Of a DNA stretch of 64,000 bases, positions 5,824-13,968 are shown one piece after another. The position numbers and the translations under genes were made by a program. This DNA is from Flagellimonas amoyensis. Lineage in GTDB: Bacteria > Bacteroidota > Bacteroidia > Flavobacteriales > Flavobacteriaceae. Each line of letters starts with the position of its first letter. Within the stretch, counting starts at the first letter, position 1. The notes under the pieces were generated by a model. The model searched no databases. It saw only the letters and a list, made by a program, of their open reading frames with translations, and had not been told where the DNA came from. The stretch lies in NCBI RefSeq assembly GCF_003058265.1, contig NZ_QBUK01000003.1:62001-126000 (forward strand). Reading direction: 5' to 3'.

Positions 5824-6954
5824 TCACGTTTTCCAGATTTTGGTGTTCAGATCTAGGTATTCCACAATCCCGATAGCATTGGAGATGTTTTCAAGGAACA
5901 GTTCAAACGCATTGGAAGTGATCAGGTTTTTGTTCTGTGGAAGACTGAAAAAGCCATCAGGATGTTGGATGGCCATGTACAATTTATCATCAATGAATGA
6001 TAGCATAATGGGGCGGTTCACTTTTCGTTTTAGGGTTACGATCCGTTCCATCAAAGCAATCGAAAGAATATAGCGTGCCTCTATTTGGTCGGTGCTATAG
6101 ACCACAAACTCTTCTTCAAACCCAGTATGTTCAAGATTGACCAATTGGCTCCGATTGAGTTTGAGGGACTGGATGGTCTTGGCAAGGTACCCTATCCTTT
6201 TTTCGAGTCTGTCCGGTAAGACTACCGTATGGCCATTGAATTTTTTATTGAAATCGATGATGGCAAACATGCCCATAAAACTGTGTCCTATCTGGTCAAC
6301 GGAGTGATTCTTGGAAAACCAGGGTCTAAGATAGCTGTAAACAAAATAGAGATGGGTGAATAGTGGGATATACATGAAATAGGAACCAAAAATGCTTTGG
6401 TTGATGATCTTCACATCACCCATGGCAACTGATGTGTTCCCAATCTTGCCAGATACAAGGCCAGCACTCATATTATATGCTTTTTGGTGCTTGTCCTTAG
6501 TGCCGGGCACTTGGGAATAGGTGGGCATCAACTGACTTTTGGTGATGGCATCTGAGGTAATCTGTTTCTGTGGATTGAATTTGAGATTTGAAATCAATTT
6601 GTCCAATACCGATGGTAAAACTTCACTTTCGATTTTCTTGAATTTGATGCCAAGACGGTTCGCTCTTATCATGAAAATGAAATAGAATGCCCAGTACAGA
6701 ATAAAAAAAAATTGGAAGGTTGCCCCAAAGCCGTCTCTGGTCATTTCGGTGATCCACTCATTGTTGAGATAGGTGAATAGTGGCAGGAAAAATATGCCCA
6801 GTACGAATATGAGTATGATCAGATTGCTACCCGTGTTGTAAAAACGATACTTTTTTCTCAATTTTTCTGCTTGATGGAGCAAGGGCATAAGTTGTACTTT
6901 GATATGTGGATGATTGTCCATTTGATCAGAATAATTATGGAAAGATTGTTTCAT
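5824..6954 (-). CDS. DUF3137 membrane protein, copy 2 of the lemA operon
   Basis: 376 residues. Two hydrophobic segments near the N-terminus (about 43-63 and 80-98) and a third weaker one about residue 190 suggest a membrane-anchored protein with a large soluble C-terminal domain, typical of DUF3137. Its last 130 residues are very similar to those of the neighbour upstream (shared runs TDQIEARYILS, RPIMLSF, LDLNT), while the first half has diverged. It is the distal gene of lemA-DUF3137-DUF3137 and its start overlaps the previous gene's end by 20 bases, indicating translational coupling. Function unknown; DUF3137 proteins often neighbour LemA. Confidence 0.82.
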   Translation of the reverse strand: MKQSFHNYSDQMDNHPHIKVQLMPLLHQAEKLRKKYRFYNTGSNLIILIFVLGIFFLPLFTYLNNEWITEMTRDGFGATFQFFFILYWAFYFIFMIRANRLGIKFKKIESEVLPSVLDKLISNLKFNPQKQITSDAITKSQLMPTYSQVPGTKDKHQKAYNMSAGLVSGKIGNTSVAMGDVKIINQSIFGSYFMYIPLFTHLYFVYSYLRPWFSKNHSVDQIGHSFMGMFAIIDFNKKFNGHTVVLPDRLEKRIGYLAKTIQSLKLNRSQLVNLEHTGFEEEFVVYSTDQIEARYILSIALMERIVTLKRKVNRPIMLSFIDDKLYMAIQHPDGFFSLPQNKNLITSNAFELFLENISNAIGIVEYLDLNTKIWKT

Positions 6955-8026
6955 TGGATTTTCTCCAGATTCTGGTATTCAGGTCAAGGTCTTTTACAAT
7001 GCCAATGGCACAGGCGATATTTTCATGGAACAGTTCCAGTGCATTGGAGTGGACCAGATTTTTGTTTTCGGGTAGGTTAAAAAAGCCATACGGATGTTCG
7101 ATGGCGATGTACAGCTTGTCATTTTTGAAGGACAACATGATGGGTCTGCCCATTTTTTTCTTTAAAGCAACGATCCGATCCATAATGGCAGTTGAAAGAA
7201 TGTAGCGCGCTTCGATTTGATCGGTTCCGTACACAACAAACTCCTTTTCAAACTCAGTGTTTTCAAGATGGATAAGCAGTCTGTTTTTGAGGTTGAGCGA
7301 TTGGATGCTCTTGGCCAAATAGCCAATTCTTTTCTCTAATTTATCAGGCAAAACCACTATTACCCCATGTATTTTTTTGTTGAAGTTGGCCACTGCAAGC
7401 ATTCCTGTAAAGTTTTTGCCAACATGGTCAACAGTCTTGGAAGTAAACCATGGTCTGAGGTATATCACCAAAATTGCTATGATATTGATGATGGGCAGGA
7501 CCAATAAAAGAGTTGTTCTGGACCTTTGGTGGAAGAGGTCTATGCTGCCTATGCGAATGGTGGTATGCCCAATGCGGCCCATTAAAATGCTTTGGGGCGG
7601 ATTCTCTATGTGATTTGAATGTTTTTTGCCCTTACCCGGGGGCAGAATGATTTCACTATCGGCGATTTCTTGAAGACTTATGGAATTGTCGTTCTCAAAT
7701 TTCAACCTTTTGTCAATTTTACGCACAATGGTTTGCACTACTTCCTTTTCAAGTTGTGTATATCTGACTTTGAAATACATGCTCGCAAACATGCTTACAA
7801 AAAAAATGATCCAATACAGTTTGTGGGGCACAAGGTACCTTTCTAAATTATGGACCTGAAAGGTTTCCCCCAATCTTGACCCATCCAGTAATAGTGGAGC
7901 AAAGGCGATTGTCACGAAAATCAACAGGATGATTTGGATTTGAAAAAAATAAAACAACTTAAAAAAGCGATAGTACTTCCTTTTTACCTCAGCTTTCTGA
8001 AGAAGGAGCAGTAGTGATTTTTCCAT
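6935..8026 (-). CDS. DUF3137 membrane protein, copy 1 of the lemA operon
   Basis: 363 residues, middle gene of the lemA operon. Predicted membrane segments lie at about 25-45, 65-85 and 175-195, followed by a soluble domain with RIGYLAKSIQSL, GTDQIEARYILST and PIMLSFKNDKLYIA. The start is 26 bases after lemA. It is the paralogue of the downstream gene. Biochemical role unknown. Association with LemA suggests an envelope function, an inference from context alone. Confidence 0.82.
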   Translation of the reverse strand: MEKSLLLLLQKAEVKRKYYRFFKLFYFFQIQIILLIFVTIAFAPLLLDGSRLGETFQVHNLERYLVPHKLYWIIFFVSMFASMYFKVRYTQLEKEVVQTIVRKIDKRLKFENDNSISLQEIADSEIILPPGKGKKHSNHIENPPQSILMGRIGHTTIRIGSIDLFHQRSRTTLLLVLPIINIIAILVIYLRPWFTSKTVDHVGKNFTGMLAVANFNKKIHGVIVVLPDKLEKRIGYLAKSIQSLNLKNRLLIHLENTEFEKEFVVYGTDQIEARYILSTAIMDRIVALKKKMGRPIMLSFKNDKLYIAIEHPYGFFNLPENKNLVHSNALELFHENIACAIGIVKDLDLNTRIWRKSNETIFP

Positions 8027-8052
8027 AAACTCAATTTTGTCACGACTTCTGC

Positions 8053-8598
8053 CTAGAAATTGATGTGGGGTGCTTCCTTGTCTTCAGTTTCGATAGTGAA
8101 CAGTTCTTTTTGGGAATAGCCCATCATTTTCCCCATGATATTGGAAGGAAACATTTCCAAGGTGTTGTTGAAGGTGTTTACAGCTGCATTGTAAGCCCTA
8201 CGGGCAGCTGAAAGTTGCTCCTCCACCTCGTTCAGGCTAGCCTGGAGCATAAGAAAGTTTTCATTTGATTTGAGATCTGGATAGGCTTCTGACCTTAGTT
8301 GTACTTTTTCCAACAACGTCCCTAACTGGCTTTCCAGATTGAATCGGGCAGTGGGCTGTACATTTTCAGCCATGACTTTTTCCCGTAGTTGTGTGATTTC
8401 TGTCAGGGTTGCACGTTCGTGCTCCATGTATCCTTTAACGGTGTTTACAAGACGGGGAATCAGGTCCGTTCTTTTTTTGAGCATTACATCAATACTGCTA
8501 TAAGCTTCATGAACCTTGTTCTTTTTTGCGATAAGATTGTTGAACAGAAAAATGGTAAAGAGCAACAGGGCTCCAAAAATGATGATGGCGTAGGTCAT
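8053..8598 (-). CDS. lemA: LemA family membrane protein
   Basis: 181 residues: a single N-terminal membrane helix (about 3-22) followed by a long helical domain with the family motifs KKNKVHEAYSSIDVMLKKR, DLIPRLVNTVKGY, AYPDLKSNENF and RRAYNAAVNTFNN. LemA proteins are anchored in the inner membrane with the helical bundle outside; their role is not settled. It leads a three-gene minus-strand operon with two DUF3137 proteins. Length and motifs are normal for the family. Confidence 0.93.
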   Translation of the reverse strand: MTYAIIIFGALLLFTIFLFNNLIAKKNKVHEAYSSIDVMLKKRTDLIPRLVNTVKGYMEHERATLTEITQLREKVMAENVQPTARFNLESQLGTLLEKVQLRSEAYPDLKSNENFLMLQASLNEVEEQLSAARRAYNAAVNTFNNTLEMFPSNIMGKMMGYSQKELFTIETEDKEAPHINF

Positions 8599-8925: not shown

Positions 8926-11900
8926 ATGAATCGAAAAAACCTCTTTGTGATTCCCATTTTTTTGGGAACTTTTTTTGTGCTCAGTGCACAGGAAACCGAA
9001 ATTTATACCCACGAAAACAAAGCCTATCAAGATGCCTTGGCGCTGTACAACAACCAGCAGTACCAGGCCGCGCAGACCATTTTCCAAACGGTTAAGTCCA
9101 GTACCAAGGATGGCGAGACGGAGGCCAACAGTGCCTACTATGCCGCCAATGCCGCCATACGCCTGAACCAGCGTGGAGCGGACAAAATGATGGAGGACTT
9201 TGTGGAACGATATCCCACTTCCACCAAGCGGAATTCCGCTTTTTTGGATGTGGCCGATTATTATTTTGAGACGGGAAAATACCCATTTGCCCTTAAATGG
9301 TACAAAAAAGTGGACGAGTCTTCCATGTCCTACGCGGACAAAGAGCGGTTCAACTTCAATAACGGTTATGCCCTTTATGCTTCCAATAGACCCGGTGAGG
9401 CGGAACGCTATCTGACGAAGGTCACCACCTCGCAAAAATATGGTTCGCAGGCCAAGTATTACCTGGGATACATTGCCTACGAGCAGGACGACTACAACCA
9501 GGCCAGTGCCCGTTTTGACCAGATAACGGATCCAGAGTTGCTCAATGAGAAGCTGTCCTATTACCAGGCCGATCTGAATTTTAAACTGGGCAAGTTCGAA
9601 GAGGCCATCGCCATGGCAGAAAAGCAATTGCCCAAATCGGACCGGCAGGAAGTTTCCGAGCTCAACAAGATCATTGGTGAGAGCTATTTCAATCTGGAAC
9701 AATATGGAAAGGCCATTCCTTATTTGGAAGGCTATAAGGGCAAACGGGGCAAGTTCAACAACACCGATTACTATTTGCTGGGGTACAGCCATTACAAACA
9801 AGGGGACTACCAGAATGCCATACAGCAATTCAATAAGATCATTGGAGGGTCCAACAATGTGTCGCAGAACGCCTACTATCATTTGGCGGAATGCTATTTG
9901 AAGTTGGACAAGAAACCTGAGGCGCTCAATGCCTTCCGAAATGCTTCGCAGATGGATTTCAGTCCCGAGATTCAAAAAGATGCCATGCTCAACTACGCCA
10001 GATTGAGCTACGAAATAGGCAATGCTTACGAGCCTGTTCCTCAGGTTTTGACCGCTTATTTGGAAAAATATCCAAAGGATGGGAACCAAATGGAGATCCA
10101 GGAACTTCTGGTGGACTCGTACATCACTTCCCGTAATTTTGAAGGGGCCATGCAGCTTTTGGAGAAGAACAAGAACTATGCGAGCAAGGAAACCTATCAA
10201 AAAGTGGCCTATTATCGTGGGGTGGAGCTTTTTATCGATGGCGATTATGAAGCGGCCTTGGACCGTTTTTCCAAATCTTTGAAAAGTGCCGACAATGCAA
10301 CTTTTGAGGCCAGGACCTTATATTGGAAAGCGGAATCTGCCTATCGATTGAACCGTTTTCAAGAAGCCTTGGTCGATTTTGTGAAATTCCAGCAACTTCC
10401 TGCATCCAAGACATTGCCGGAATACCAAGAATTGGATTATAATCTAGGCTATTGTTACTTCAAGCTGAAGGATTACAACAATGCAATTGCCTATTTCAAG
10501 AACGTGGTCAATTCCAACGCTCTTGATGAGGACCGAAAGAACGATGGCTATCTCCGTTTGGGGGACAGCTACTTCGTGACCAGCAAATATCAGTTTGCCA
10601 TGAACGCCTATGATGCATCTTCCAAGTTGAACGGACCGGAAAGGGACTATGCTGCGTTTCAGAAAACATTGTGCAGTGGGTTTTTGGGCAACAACTCGGC
10701 CAAGATCGATGGGCTGATCGAGTTTTTGGAACGTTACCCCAACTCTTCGCTGCGGGATGATGCCCTTTTTGAACTCGGCAATTCCTATATCAAAAACAAC
10801 CAGGAGAATTTGGGTCTACGCACCTATGACCGTCTTGTGGACGAATATGCAAAAAGCAAGTTTGCCCCCCAAGGCATGTTGCGTCAGGGCCTTGTGCACT
10901 ACAATGCCAGTAGGAACCAGCAGGCTTTGGACAAGTTGAAGGAAGTGGTGCAGAAATATCCGAACACCCAGGAGGCCAAGCAGGCGGTAGCCACGGCCAA
11001 ATTGGTCTATGTGGACGAAGGTAGGGTGAGCGAGTATGCCGCATGGGCCAGAAACTTGGATTTTGTGGAAGTGACCGACTCCGAACTGGACAATGCCAGT
11101 TTTGAATCGGCCGAAAAGAAGCAGATAGAGGGTAAGACCGATGTGGCCATCAAAGGCTATGAGGACTATTTGAAACAGTTCCCGAACGGCCTTCATTCCG
11201 GAAGCGCCAATTTTGCCTTGGCCCAGCTTTATTTTGCCAAGGGGCAAAAAGACAAGGCCCTGCCAAGGTACAAAGCCGTGGCCGATGGAGGGAACGGTGA
11301 ATATACCGAGCAGGCATTGACCCGTGTCTGTGAGATCTATGTGGAAAAACAAGATTATCAAAGTGCCATTCCCTATCTGAAACGATTGGAGACGACGGCC
11401 GATATTTCCGAGAACAGGACCTTTGCCCAATCCAATCTGATGAAAGGGTATTACGGTCAAAAAGACTACGGGCAGACCATAGCCTATGCCGAAAAGGTGT
11501 TGAAGGCCCCCAAAATTGACGATAGGATCAAGAGTGATGCGCAGATCATGATCGCACGCTCGGCCATCGCCACAGAAAATGAATCCTTGGCCAAGACCGC
11601 CTATCAGGATGTGAAGAAAATTGCAACGGGAGAATTGGCTGCTGAATCTTGGTACTACGATGCCTACTTTAAAAACAAGGAAGGCGATTTTGAGGCCTCC
11701 AACACATCGGTACAGAAATTGGCGAAGGATTACTCGGCCTACAAGACATGGGCCGGTAAGGGATTGGTGATCATGGCCAAAAATTTCTACAATTTGGGAG
11801 ATGCCTTCCAGGCCACGTACATTTTGGAAAGCGTGATTTCCAATTTTTCGGACTATGATGAGATTGTCACTGAGGCCAAGAGCGAACTGGCCATGATCAA

Positions 11901-11949
11901 GACGAAGGAAGCAGAGAGCAATTCATCCGTAGATCCCAACGAAAATTAA
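8926..11949 (+). CDS. Large exported tetratricopeptide-repeat protein
   Basis: 1007 residues. A signal peptide (MNRKNLFVIPIFLGTFFVLS, cut near SAQ) is followed by TPR-like helical repeats to nearly the end, with typical units such as YQDALALYNNQQYQAAQ, ALKWYKKVDESS, YHLAECYLKLDKKPEALNAF and LALAQLY-like segments; many resemble the BamD/YbgF class. The extreme C-terminus is acidic and unstructured. It should lie in the periplasm or on a membrane face as a scaffold. The outer-membrane barrel gene begins 12 bases later, so the two are almost certainly co-expressed and probably partners. Partner identity beyond that is unknown. Confidence 0.9.
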   Translation: MNRKNLFVIPIFLGTFFVLSAQETEIYTHENKAYQDALALYNNQQYQAAQTIFQTVKSSTKDGETEANSAYYAANAAIRLNQRGADKMMEDFVERYPTSTKRNSAFLDVADYYFETGKYPFALKWYKKVDESSMSYADKERFNFNNGYALYASNRPGEAERYLTKVTTSQKYGSQAKYYLGYIAYEQDDYNQASARFDQITDPELLNEKLSYYQADLNFKLGKFEEAIAMAEKQLPKSDRQEVSELNKIIGESYFNLEQYGKAIPYLEGYKGKRGKFNNTDYYLLGYSHYKQGDYQNAIQQFNKIIGGSNNVSQNAYYHLAECYLKLDKKPEALNAFRNASQMDFSPEIQKDAMLNYARLSYEIGNAYEPVPQVLTAYLEKYPKDGNQMEIQELLVDSYITSRNFEGAMQLLEKNKNYASKETYQKVAYYRGVELFIDGDYEAALDRFSKSLKSADNATFEARTLYWKAESAYRLNRFQEALVDFVKFQQLPASKTLPEYQELDYNLGYCYFKLKDYNNAIAYFKNVVNSNALDEDRKNDGYLRLGDSYFVTSKYQFAMNAYDASSKLNGPERDYAAFQKTLCSGFLGNNSAKIDGLIEFLERYPNSSLRDDALFELGNSYIKNNQENLGLRTYDRLVDEYAKSKFAPQGMLRQGLVHYNASRNQQALDKLKEVVQKYPNTQEAKQAVATAKLVYVDEGRVSEYAAWARNLDFVEVTDSELDNASFESAEKKQIEGKTDVAIKGYEDYLKQFPNGLHSGSANFALAQLYFAKGQKDKALPRYKAVADGGNGEYTEQALTRVCEIYVEKQDYQSAIPYLKRLETTADISENRTFAQSNLMKGYYGQKDYGQTIAYAEKVLKAPKIDDRIKSDAQIMIARSAIATENESLAKTAYQDVKKIATGELAAESWYYDAYFKNKEGDFEASNTSVQKLAKDYSAYKTWAGKGLVIMAKNFYNLGDAFQATYILESVISNFSDYDEIVTEAKSELAMIKTKEAESNSSVDPNEN

Positions 11950-11961
11950 ACGAGACACAAC

Positions 11962-13710
11962 ATGCAAAAGAGAACCTATATATTTCCATTACTTTTTTTG
12001 AGCCTTTTTGGAACCCTTTTCGGTCAGGAGACCGATGATATTGGCACGGAGACGGTAACGGTGGTGAAACCGTATTCCCCGACCGTTTCAGATGCCTTCA
12101 AGATCAAATCGGCACCCAACCTGAACGATTCCATCGTGCTGCAAAAAAAGAAGATAGATTACAGTATTTTTTCCGTGCCGGTGGCGTCCACATTTACCCC
12201 TGCGAAGGGAAAGGCATCGGGAGTGAAGAAGACCCCGCCTCCCACGCTGTACAATTCGTATGCTTCGGTAGGATTGGGCAACTATAACAATGCCTTGGTG
12301 GATTTTTATACCAGCAGGGAGTTCAACAGGGGAGAGGACCTATTGGATTTTGGCCTGACCCACAATTCATCAAGGGGCGATCTGGATTCCACGCCCTTGG
12401 AAACGGATTTCTACAACACAAAGTTTGATGCGTCCTATGCCAAAAGGGACAGATATATGGATTGGGGTGCCAGTGTGGGGCTCCAACACCAACTGTACAA
12501 CTGGTACGGGATAGAGAACGACGTGTATAGCGATGATCTTGTTGCCTCCATGGACGAACAGCAAAATTATTTCAATGCAGAGGCAAAGGCCCATTTGAGT
12601 ATGGAGGATTCCTTTTTCAAACAAGGGAACCTGCTCTTGAGGCGTTTTTGGGATGCCACGGAATCCGCCGAAAACCGTGTGGTAATAAACCCGACCTTGG
12701 AACTGCCCATTACCGAGGAGTTGATCACCATTTCTGCCAAGTTGGATTATGTGGGCGGAAATTTCAAAAATGCATCGCTGAACAATGCGACCAATACCGG
12801 GGAGATCAATTACAGCCATTTACAGGCGGGGGTGACCCCAAGCCTTCTCATTTTGCGAGACGACCTTACCGTGAACTTGGGAGCGAACATCGTATATGGT
12901 CTGGACACCGAAAACAGCGACAGTAATTTTTACATCTATCCGGCCGTGACCGCTTCTTATCGGGTGTTGGATGAGAACGTGATTGCCTATGGAGGTATTG
13001 AGGGACAGTTGAAACAAAATTCCTATCACGATTTTGTGGATGAAAACCCTTATGTGTCGCCGACCTTGGATATTCTGCCCACCGATCAGCAGTATGAAGG
13101 CTATTTGGGGCTGAAAGGTCAGTTGACCTCCAATGTGGGGTATAACATCAAAGGTTCATACATGGCCGAGAACAGAAAGCCATTGTTCTATCATAATCCC
13201 ATCAATACGTTTAGGGATGATGAGAAAAGCTATTACTACGGCAATTCTTTTCAGGTATTTTATGATGATGTGAAGACCTTGGGTGTTTTTGGTGAAATCA
13301 ATGTGGACATCAACCGGAATTTTTCATTGGGGATCAATGGAGAATTTTATGACTATGATACCGAAACGGACAATCCGGCTTGGAACCTACCTTCCATAAA
13401 GGGTTCTGTGTTCATGGACTATCAAATCAGCGATCAATGGTACATGGGAGCCAACCTGTTCTATGTAGGGGAGAGGGATGATCTGTTGTCCCAGGTGATA
13501 GACCCTCTTGATTCGGAGTTGCAATTCCAACAGGTGACCTTGGATGGCTTTTTTGATGTCAATGCACATGTGGGATATCGGTTCAACGAACAACTTTCCA
13601 TTTTTGTGAAGGCTTCCAATATCGCCAACAACAACTATCAAAACTGGGCCAATTTCAGGGTGCAGGGCTTTCAGGCCTTGGCAGGGGTATCCTATAAGTT
13701 TGATTTTTAA
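11962..13710 (+). CDS. Outer-membrane beta-barrel protein (TonB-dependent-receptor-like, plugless)
   Basis: 582 residues with a signal peptide (MQKRTYIFPLLFLSLFGTLF). Just after it comes the motif VVKPYSPTVSDAFKIKSAP, then a linker and a long barrel region of alternating aromatic/polar strands ending in VSYKFDF, a typical barrel C-terminus. Some relatives are annotated as TonB-dependent receptors, but I see no plug domain. It is the second gene of the TPR operon. Transport substrate unknown; the N-terminal motif may contact the TPR protein or another envelope component, which is inference. Confidence 0.85.
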   Translation: MQKRTYIFPLLFLSLFGTLFGQETDDIGTETVTVVKPYSPTVSDAFKIKSAPNLNDSIVLQKKKIDYSIFSVPVASTFTPAKGKASGVKKTPPPTLYNSYASVGLGNYNNALVDFYTSREFNRGEDLLDFGLTHNSSRGDLDSTPLETDFYNTKFDASYAKRDRYMDWGASVGLQHQLYNWYGIENDVYSDDLVASMDEQQNYFNAEAKAHLSMEDSFFKQGNLLLRRFWDATESAENRVVINPTLELPITEELITISAKLDYVGGNFKNASLNNATNTGEINYSHLQAGVTPSLLILRDDLTVNLGANIVYGLDTENSDSNFYIYPAVTASYRVLDENVIAYGGIEGQLKQNSYHDFVDENPYVSPTLDILPTDQQYEGYLGLKGQLTSNVGYNIKGSYMAENRKPLFYHNPINTFRDDEKSYYYGNSFQVFYDDVKTLGVFGEINVDINRNFSLGINGEFYDYDTETDNPAWNLPSIKGSVFMDYQISDQWYMGANLFYVGERDDLLSQVIDPLDSELQFQQVTLDGFFDVNAHVGYRFNEQLSIFVKASNIANNNYQNWANFRVQGFQALAGVSYKFDF

Positions 13711-13968
13711 GTAAATAGATTGTTTATGTAGCGTCTTGTGCCTAAAGAATTCTTTTGGCAACGTCAATCCGATTGCAATCCAGAGGATTTTCGTGTTATG
13801 AGTTAAGGGGTCAAGTTAGCTGATTTAAATTAGGCTTCTAATTCTGGTTTTCGATATAAACTTACTAGGACCGACAAATTTTTAGACAAGAACAGCAAAG
13901 GCGAATTTTACTGACAAAAAAAACCCCGTGGGCTTTCCCACGGGGTTTTATATTTTAGGCGGTTGGGA
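13711..13968. other. Intergenic end of the TPR/barrel operon
   Basis: Contains a short open stretch without a recognisable product and the strong hairpin at 13916-13950. Nothing else identified. Confidence 0.4.
13916..13950 (-). terminator. Strong rho-independent terminator, usable on both strands
   Basis: Nine perfect pairs, CCCCGTGGG with CCCACGGGG, loop CTTT; flanked by A8 on the left (T8 on the minus strand) and TTTTA on the right. It is placed correctly to end the former susD gene on the minus strand, and also follows the + strand barrel gene. Confidence 0.85.

Follow-up and report, generated by a model that had tools for sequence, protein, structure and literature searches.

A co-occurring TPR protein and plug-less TonB-dependent-transporter-type barrel as a candidate outer-membrane end of a Tol/Ton-type machine in Bacteroidota

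TonB-dependent transporters (TBDTs) such as BtuB, FhuA and FpvA, the Tol-Pal system and Slam are the closest described counterparts of a gene pair in a 64,000-nucleotide stretch of the Flagellimonas amoyensis genome (contig NZ_QBUK01000003.1, positions 62,001 to 126,000, forward strand; hereafter the window). The pair encodes T, a periplasmic tetratricopeptide-repeat (TPR) protein, and B, an outer-membrane barrel of predicted TBDT type. Slam is one polypeptide with a smaller barrel; it shares with the pair the combination of TPR and barrel, which T and B divide between two genes, and the TPR_Slam family matches T at E = 0.0034, below its cut-off. In Tol-Pal, the TPR protein is CpoB (PMC7391070) and the N-terminus of TolB is disordered (PMC8928145). 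A survey (PMC12204202) reports no identifiable tol-pal loci in Bacteroidetes except fused forms, and records the proposal that PorE assumes Tol-Pal tasks in the phylum. PorE and CHU_0125, CpoB-TolB-Pal-like fusions of Bacteroidota, are lipoproteins with TPR, propeller and OmpA-like parts and are different genes from T and B (NF053607 scores 28.7 bits on T, against 620). Like the pair, the Bacteroidota BAM complex is conserved envelope machinery of the phylum; the word TPR is absent from the accessible text of PMC12611786, as are TPR and tetratricopeptide from that of PMC12578637. We found no description of the pair or of its gene run in the open-access literature searched, which did not cover preprints. 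From co-occurrence, gene order and structural modelling we propose, with the chances evenly balanced, that T and B form the outer-membrane end of an envelope-spanning machine of their own, which is of the Tol/Ton type and driven by protons.

Both open reading frames are present in the window as first described. T (8926..11949, plus strand, 1007 residues) is separated by a 12-base gap (11950..11961) from the ATG of B (11962..13710, plus strand, 582 residues), which lies in frame with it. Among the best 25 of 26 Pfam families matching T, 16 are named TPR, and most of the rest of those listed are other helical-repeat families. Read by eye, T has a signal peptide at about residues 1–20 and no visible lipobox. 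TIGR02795, the model for CpoB/YbgF, which are small proteins with a coiled coil, reaches 175.3 bits against a cut-off of 90.1, a score summed over eight stretches of the 1007-residue solenoid. When modelled together with the N-terminal part of B, T forms a single long helical solenoid; the 50 Foldseek matches listed for this model are generic TPR or solenoid proteins, with TM-scores of at most 0.27 by query length, and the fold of T therefore tells us nothing specific. Identification of T as PorW/SprE was rejected (NF052312, 75.3 bits against a cut-off of 250). Porphyromonas gingivalis PG1028 was likewise dropped as a T candidate: one paper (PMC4335976) gives it as a TPR domain protein, and a second (PMC4980022) includes it with the proteins that carry an OmpA-like peptidoglycan domain.

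T and B are present or absent together, and we take them to be one module. All 63 genomes with T among those drawn for both searches also have B. When 13 genomes without T were searched again, T was found in none and B in one (G613, a draft 81% complete); the T query used here recovered T in 14 of 16 genomes elsewhere and so is able to find it. The association has a Fisher p of 4e-13, not corrected for relatedness. This answers the co-occurrence check suggested in the preliminary description, with 63/63 joint presences and 12/13 joint absences, and rules out T and B as independent families. Both are widespread in the window's class. T was detected at 1e-30 in 383 of 396 genomes, about five of these matches lying between 1e-35 and 1e-47 and possibly being fragments or other TPR proteins, and B reached E 1e-70 or lower in 103 of 105 genomes, a set that includes the window's family and order, with G269 and G373 as exceptions. 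Two candidates per genome were scored in the T search and three in the B search. Seven genomes with sizes of 2.7 to 3.3 Mb yielded neither gene: G373, G554, G680, G269, G424, G458 and G486.

The two genes are also neighbours. In four sets of loci chosen through B, T lies directly upstream in 39/40, 19/20, 15/16 and 13/19, and in all ten non-adjacent cases tested (G053, G343 and eight of eight from family f23) T occurs elsewhere in the genome. Starting instead from T, we kept the best 80 of its 567 relatives, mostly from Sphingobacteriaceae. In 79 named loci found through T, B comes next in 75 by census and in one more (L214) on inspection; the remaining three stop at a contig end behind T. One genus has six loci (L073, L074, L076, L078, L090 and L092) with a gene that looks by eye to be of the PhzF type between T and B. 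Loci L106 and L070 are one and the same.

The predicted fold makes B a plug-less barrel of the TBDT type. At the sequence level no Pfam family exceeded its cut-off and no NCBIfam model matched; PF00593 scored 15.2 bits, under its gathering score of 27, and the top match in a PDB sequence search had E = 1.1. Of 74 B matches collected, alignment A1 took 28 and A3 took 62, the latter leaving out an own-genome duplicate, two other own-genome open reading frames, one fragment, one other-class barrel and seven near-duplicates. The AlphaFold2 model built on the 62 rows has a mean predicted local distance difference test (pLDDT) score of 83.2 and a predicted TM-score (pTM) of 0.80. All 50 Foldseek matches listed for it are TBDTs, with BtuB and FpvA at the top (best E 1.1e-19), and VIA gave Z-scores of 21.9 for FhuA and 21.5 for BtuB, the best match having a root-mean-square deviation of 3.0 Å over 443 aligned residues. 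The barrel domain spans residues 97–582 (12250..13707). Residues 19–92 have pLDDT below 50 and no structure, and no plug domain is seen inside the modelled barrel, in agreement with the earlier remark that the barrel has no visible plug; burial of its N-terminal motif in a plug, which that account had considered, does not apply to this model. With the unstructured part trimmed, the alignment starts at BtuB residue 136 and FhuA residue 160, that is, behind the plug; some untrimmed VIA rows begin earlier. DSSP assigns 26 segments of at least three residues, which do not settle the strand number. The C-terminal consensus NNLLNxxYQRW...GFN is of the type found in TBDTs.

The window's genome holds a single close copy of B, namely B itself; two further matches, at E 0.001 and 0.02, are other open reading frames. 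With one close copy and no plug, B was rejected as an ordinary nutrient TBDT. A related reading would make the pair a TonB-energised gate for import or export, with T or B's own tail replacing the plug and the pore opening when pulled. Something must close an open pore this large, and the barrel type fits such a gate; the single close copy and class-wide presence are unlike nutrient TBDTs, and we consider a gate unlikely, also in view of the neighbouring genes discussed below.

About 75 residues separate the signal peptide of B from its barrel. In place of a plug, then, B has some 75 unstructured residues, and it further differs from BtuB, FhuA and FpvA in its sub-threshold PF00593 score and its TPR partner; it resembles them in barrel fold, in a TonB-box-like strand near the N-terminus and, in relatives, in a motor of the Ton/Tol type encoded beside it. 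The signal peptide probably ends, by our own reading, after residue 21. The motif VVKPYSPTVSDAFKIKSAP occupies residues 34–52 and so begins about 12 residues past the probable cleavage site, not directly after the signal peptide as had been described. Conservation in the 62-row alignment, to which the window's family contributes 23 rows, averages 2.01 bits for residues 29–35, 2.02 for 36–53 and 1.91 for 66–78, compared with 1.71 for the barrel, and the spacers fall below the barrel mean (1.35 bits for 54–65 and 1.33 for 79–96). Columns such as V34, P40, A45, K47 and Y67 reach 2.9 to 4.2 bits. The motif had been called fixed: it is conserved above the barrel mean, but its exact letters are limited to the window's family, other families keeping the pattern with different letters.

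Across families the tail starts with EEIVVTTAYKP, EEIEVVRPYKP, KSVDILSEFKP, QEFVIRKDRVL and similar sequences; in some other-class loci it starts with LPEFVITG or LPEVIVTGRE, and in those of family f23 with INPQDIEIRSEF. TBDT plugs of the phylum begin much like the LPEFVITG and LPEVIVTG tails, and because of this likeness we read the opening stretch of the B tail, residues ~29–35 (12046..12066), as a TonB-box-like strand. A TonB-box-like pattern occurs in 42 of 61 tails as against 15.8 in shuffled tails, a comparison that counts for little, as the rows are related to one another and the pattern was picked with the tails already in view.

Modelling suggests that residues 39–78 of B may lie on T. 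We modelled T residues 21–1007 and B residues 1–100 as one chain, reading through the intervening stop, on a 47-row alignment in which 19 rows contain both proteins. It used 18 of 25 in-frame loci and omitted three with a shortened tail, one with nine stops, one longer than 1200 residues and two copies of one other-class locus. Placed behind T, residues 39–78 have a mean pLDDT of 67–77 per block, compared with 25–35 without T (25–31 for residues 41–80); the two models were built on different alignments, and the comparison does not locate the site on T. The block of residues 29–38, containing the TonB-box-like stretch, reaches 43, and the signal peptide of B, serving as an inner control, 29–35. 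On this model and on conservation, residues 38–83 (12073..12210), which lie outside the low-confidence runs behind T, are a possible T-binding stretch. The preliminary description had suggested that the motif is a docking peptide, perhaps for the TPR protein or the envelope tether, and the gain at residues 39–78 lends the first of these some support, as a change in pLDDT without predicted aligned error or coordinates.

The link to a motor comes from gene order in relatives. In Sphingobacteriaceae and several other families, T and B are followed by genes for an HU/SPOR-type protein, a MotA_ExbB protein, an ExbD protein, a TonB/TolA-like transducer and a FolC-like protein. Partial versions also occur, either with HU/SPOR, transducer and FolC and without ExbB/ExbD (L067, L115) or, in some families, with an HU-type protein alone. 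The operon proteins carry MotA_ExbB, ExbD, SPOR and HU-CCDC81 domains, of which MotA_ExbB and ExbD exceed their Pfam cut-offs. A 2017 study by Burroughs and colleagues on HU/CCDC81 proteins may have noted SPOR fusions or their operons. All NCBIfam assignments in the motor are below cut-off: the ExbB-like proteins are nearest TolQ in both cases examined (own genome and L036; in the former, 2.6e-26 for TolQ against 8.2e-13 for the best ExbB model), and the ExbD-like protein is nearest TolR in the window's genome and nearest ExbD in L036. Read by eye, the transducer consists of a membrane segment, a linker and a C-terminal domain.

These neighbours were counted on the same strand within 6 kb downstream of B, using profiles built partly from the first set. 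That set, 40 loci outside the window's family (38 from its class, two from others), has HU/SPOR in 24, TolQ/TolR-like genes in 17 and the transducer in 17. Among 20 other-class loci (L120–L139, picked by best barrel score and not a random sample) the counts are 16, 15 and 8, which indicates that the order is old. In 70 named loci, which come mostly from Sphingobacteriaceae and so are not 70 independent cases, each is found in 49. That such a neighbourhood should recur by chance is, we infer, very unlikely. In loci L072, L120–L122, L125, L126, L128 and L132 of family f23, B is followed by the HU/SPOR-type and motor genes and T lies elsewhere in the genome. The transducer itself is found in 13 of 14 genomes with the pair and in neither of two without it (G373, G269; p 0.025). 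HU-CCDC81 exceeds its cut-off in 11 of 16 genomes and is below it in G269, G007 and G033; this uneven distribution across genomes with and without the pair means that the HU protein is not strictly tied to it.

The run of TolQ-, TolR- and TonB/TolA-like genes in relatives resembles Tol-Pal, as do the TPR protein, the SPOR domain and an outer-membrane-side partner whose N-terminus is disordered, as in TolB. It differs in that the partner is a barrel, and in that neither TolB nor Pal was recognised among the operon genes read (no dedicated search with PF04052, PF07676 or PF00691 was made). The same genes bear on the gate discussed above: an adjoining TonB/TolA-like transducer and a TonB-box-like tail would suit it, whereas SPOR and HU domains are ill-suited to uptake and no shared substrate genes are evident among the neighbour clusters, of which only those of the operon were identified. 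They also bear on a second account, in which the pair is a scaffold for cell-wall synthesis or envelope biogenesis, B a passive anchor and adjacency to the motor a matter of shared regulation. A FolC-like gene, probably metabolic, belongs to the same run, and the pair stands alone in the window's family; yet other classes preserve the TolQ/TolR and HU/SPOR order in loci that showed no FolC, and the transducer is absent in both of the tested genomes that lack the pair. We rate such a scaffold as quite improbable.

Several observations weigh against a Tol/Ton-type machine. What closes the open pore of B is a question that this reading faces. Docking of the tail is read from pLDDT alone, in a model with a pTM of 0.47 and both parts in 19 of 47 alignment rows. 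Eleven class genomes at least 90% complete and mostly of normal size lack T, and all eleven lack B, so the pair is not indispensable. In the window's family HU/SPOR, TolQ/TolR-like genes and transducer are each found near the pair in 0 of 19 loci, and in a second class sample, which includes five loci of that family, in 6/16, 1/16 and 2/16, respectively. In the window's own genome contig 17 carries ExbB, ExbD, the transducer and the FolC-like gene in one run, and the HU-SPOR gene lies on contig 2, apart from both the pair and the motor run. The neighbour of B varies: it carries HU and SPOR in L036 and L039, SPOR slightly below cut-off without HU in L053, and HU below cut-off without SPOR in L055. 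HU-CCDC81 is retained in G373, which lacks the pair, and was not found in two genomes with the pair, G017 and G091. The transducer is a weak TonB relative, with TonB_C in 4 of 15 members (best 4.4e-5; no match in the own-genome member) and E = 0.19 to TonB in the PDB, and G041 has the pair and no transducer at 1e-5, a threshold that admits second matches in G000 and G045. Overall, the tie between the pair and a Tol/Ton-type motor is supported by gene order; this tie is strong for a good share of the relatives, and for the window's own family it is indirect.

The normal-sized genomes without the pair bear on a third account as well. T and B could be a surface lipoprotein exporter, a split functional counterpart of Slam and the missing flippase of Bacteroidota, whose identity PMC12578637 names as an open question. 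The same two types of part, TPR and barrel, and the class-wide presence would be expected of it. The barrel is of the TBDT type, however, the pair is associated with TolQ/TolR and SPOR, and normal-sized genomes, which may or may not export lipoproteins, do without it; we regard this account as very unlikely.

The preliminary description as a whole is partly supported; the likeness to a TonB box, the TBDT type of the barrel, and the motor and HU/SPOR genes beside the pair in many relatives go beyond it. Downstream of B, a terminator-like hairpin of 13 pairs, T-rich on both sides (13920..13949), possibly ends the T-B transcription unit; the region has 12 terminator-like sites against 6.9 expected, so that the hairpin is weak by itself, and a promoter scan of the region was uninformative (10 sites against 11.9 expected). 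Elsewhere in the window, 5824–8598 on the minus strand encodes what looks by eye like a LemA-like protein, together with two related ones (363 and 376 residues). Locus L102 (5459–9038), also from the window's genome, holds an ExbB-like gene, a small open reading frame and four ExbD-like genes and is a second, different motor cluster.

In the Tol/Ton-type machine that we propose, B would be a plug-less TBDT-type barrel carrying a flexible N-terminal periplasmic tail. Its residues ~29–35 would offer a strand to the C-terminal domain of the TonB/TolA-like transducer, itself energised by its own TolQ/TolR-like pair, and the next ~40 tail residues would be held on the TPR solenoid of T. Pulling would strip the tail from T, or draw the T-B complex inwards, by analogy with Escherichia coli, where TolA pulls the TolB N-terminus away from Pal. 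SPOR domains bind septal peptidoglycan, which points to division, and the SPOR protein of the run would bind peptidoglycan at the division site. The outer membrane would in this way be coupled to the wall and the inner membrane, and part of the place of Tol-Pal would be filled. The pairing, the joint absence, the gene order in relatives, the predicted fold, the lack of a plug and the conserved tail are what the analysis shows; the placing of the tail on T is a prediction, and binding of the TonB-box-like strand, pulling, and a role in envelope stability or constriction are what we infer.

Taken further, Bacteroidota and neighbouring classes may possess a machine of their own that replaces Tol-Pal, in which a motor and rod pull the tail of a plug-less barrel off T, SPOR steers the process to the division site, and HU-like domains across the membrane may report on the chromosome; this fuller version is tentative, and we consider it less likely than not. 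It addresses the open question of how energy is supplied to the outer membrane at division in Bacteroidota, whether gut, oral or environmental. A concrete and testable candidate for that supply is the conserved group of genes encoding T, B and the HU/SPOR, TolQ/TolR and TonB-like proteins, and a plug-less TBDT-type barrel, if true, would represent a new use of a much-studied class of outer-membrane transporters.

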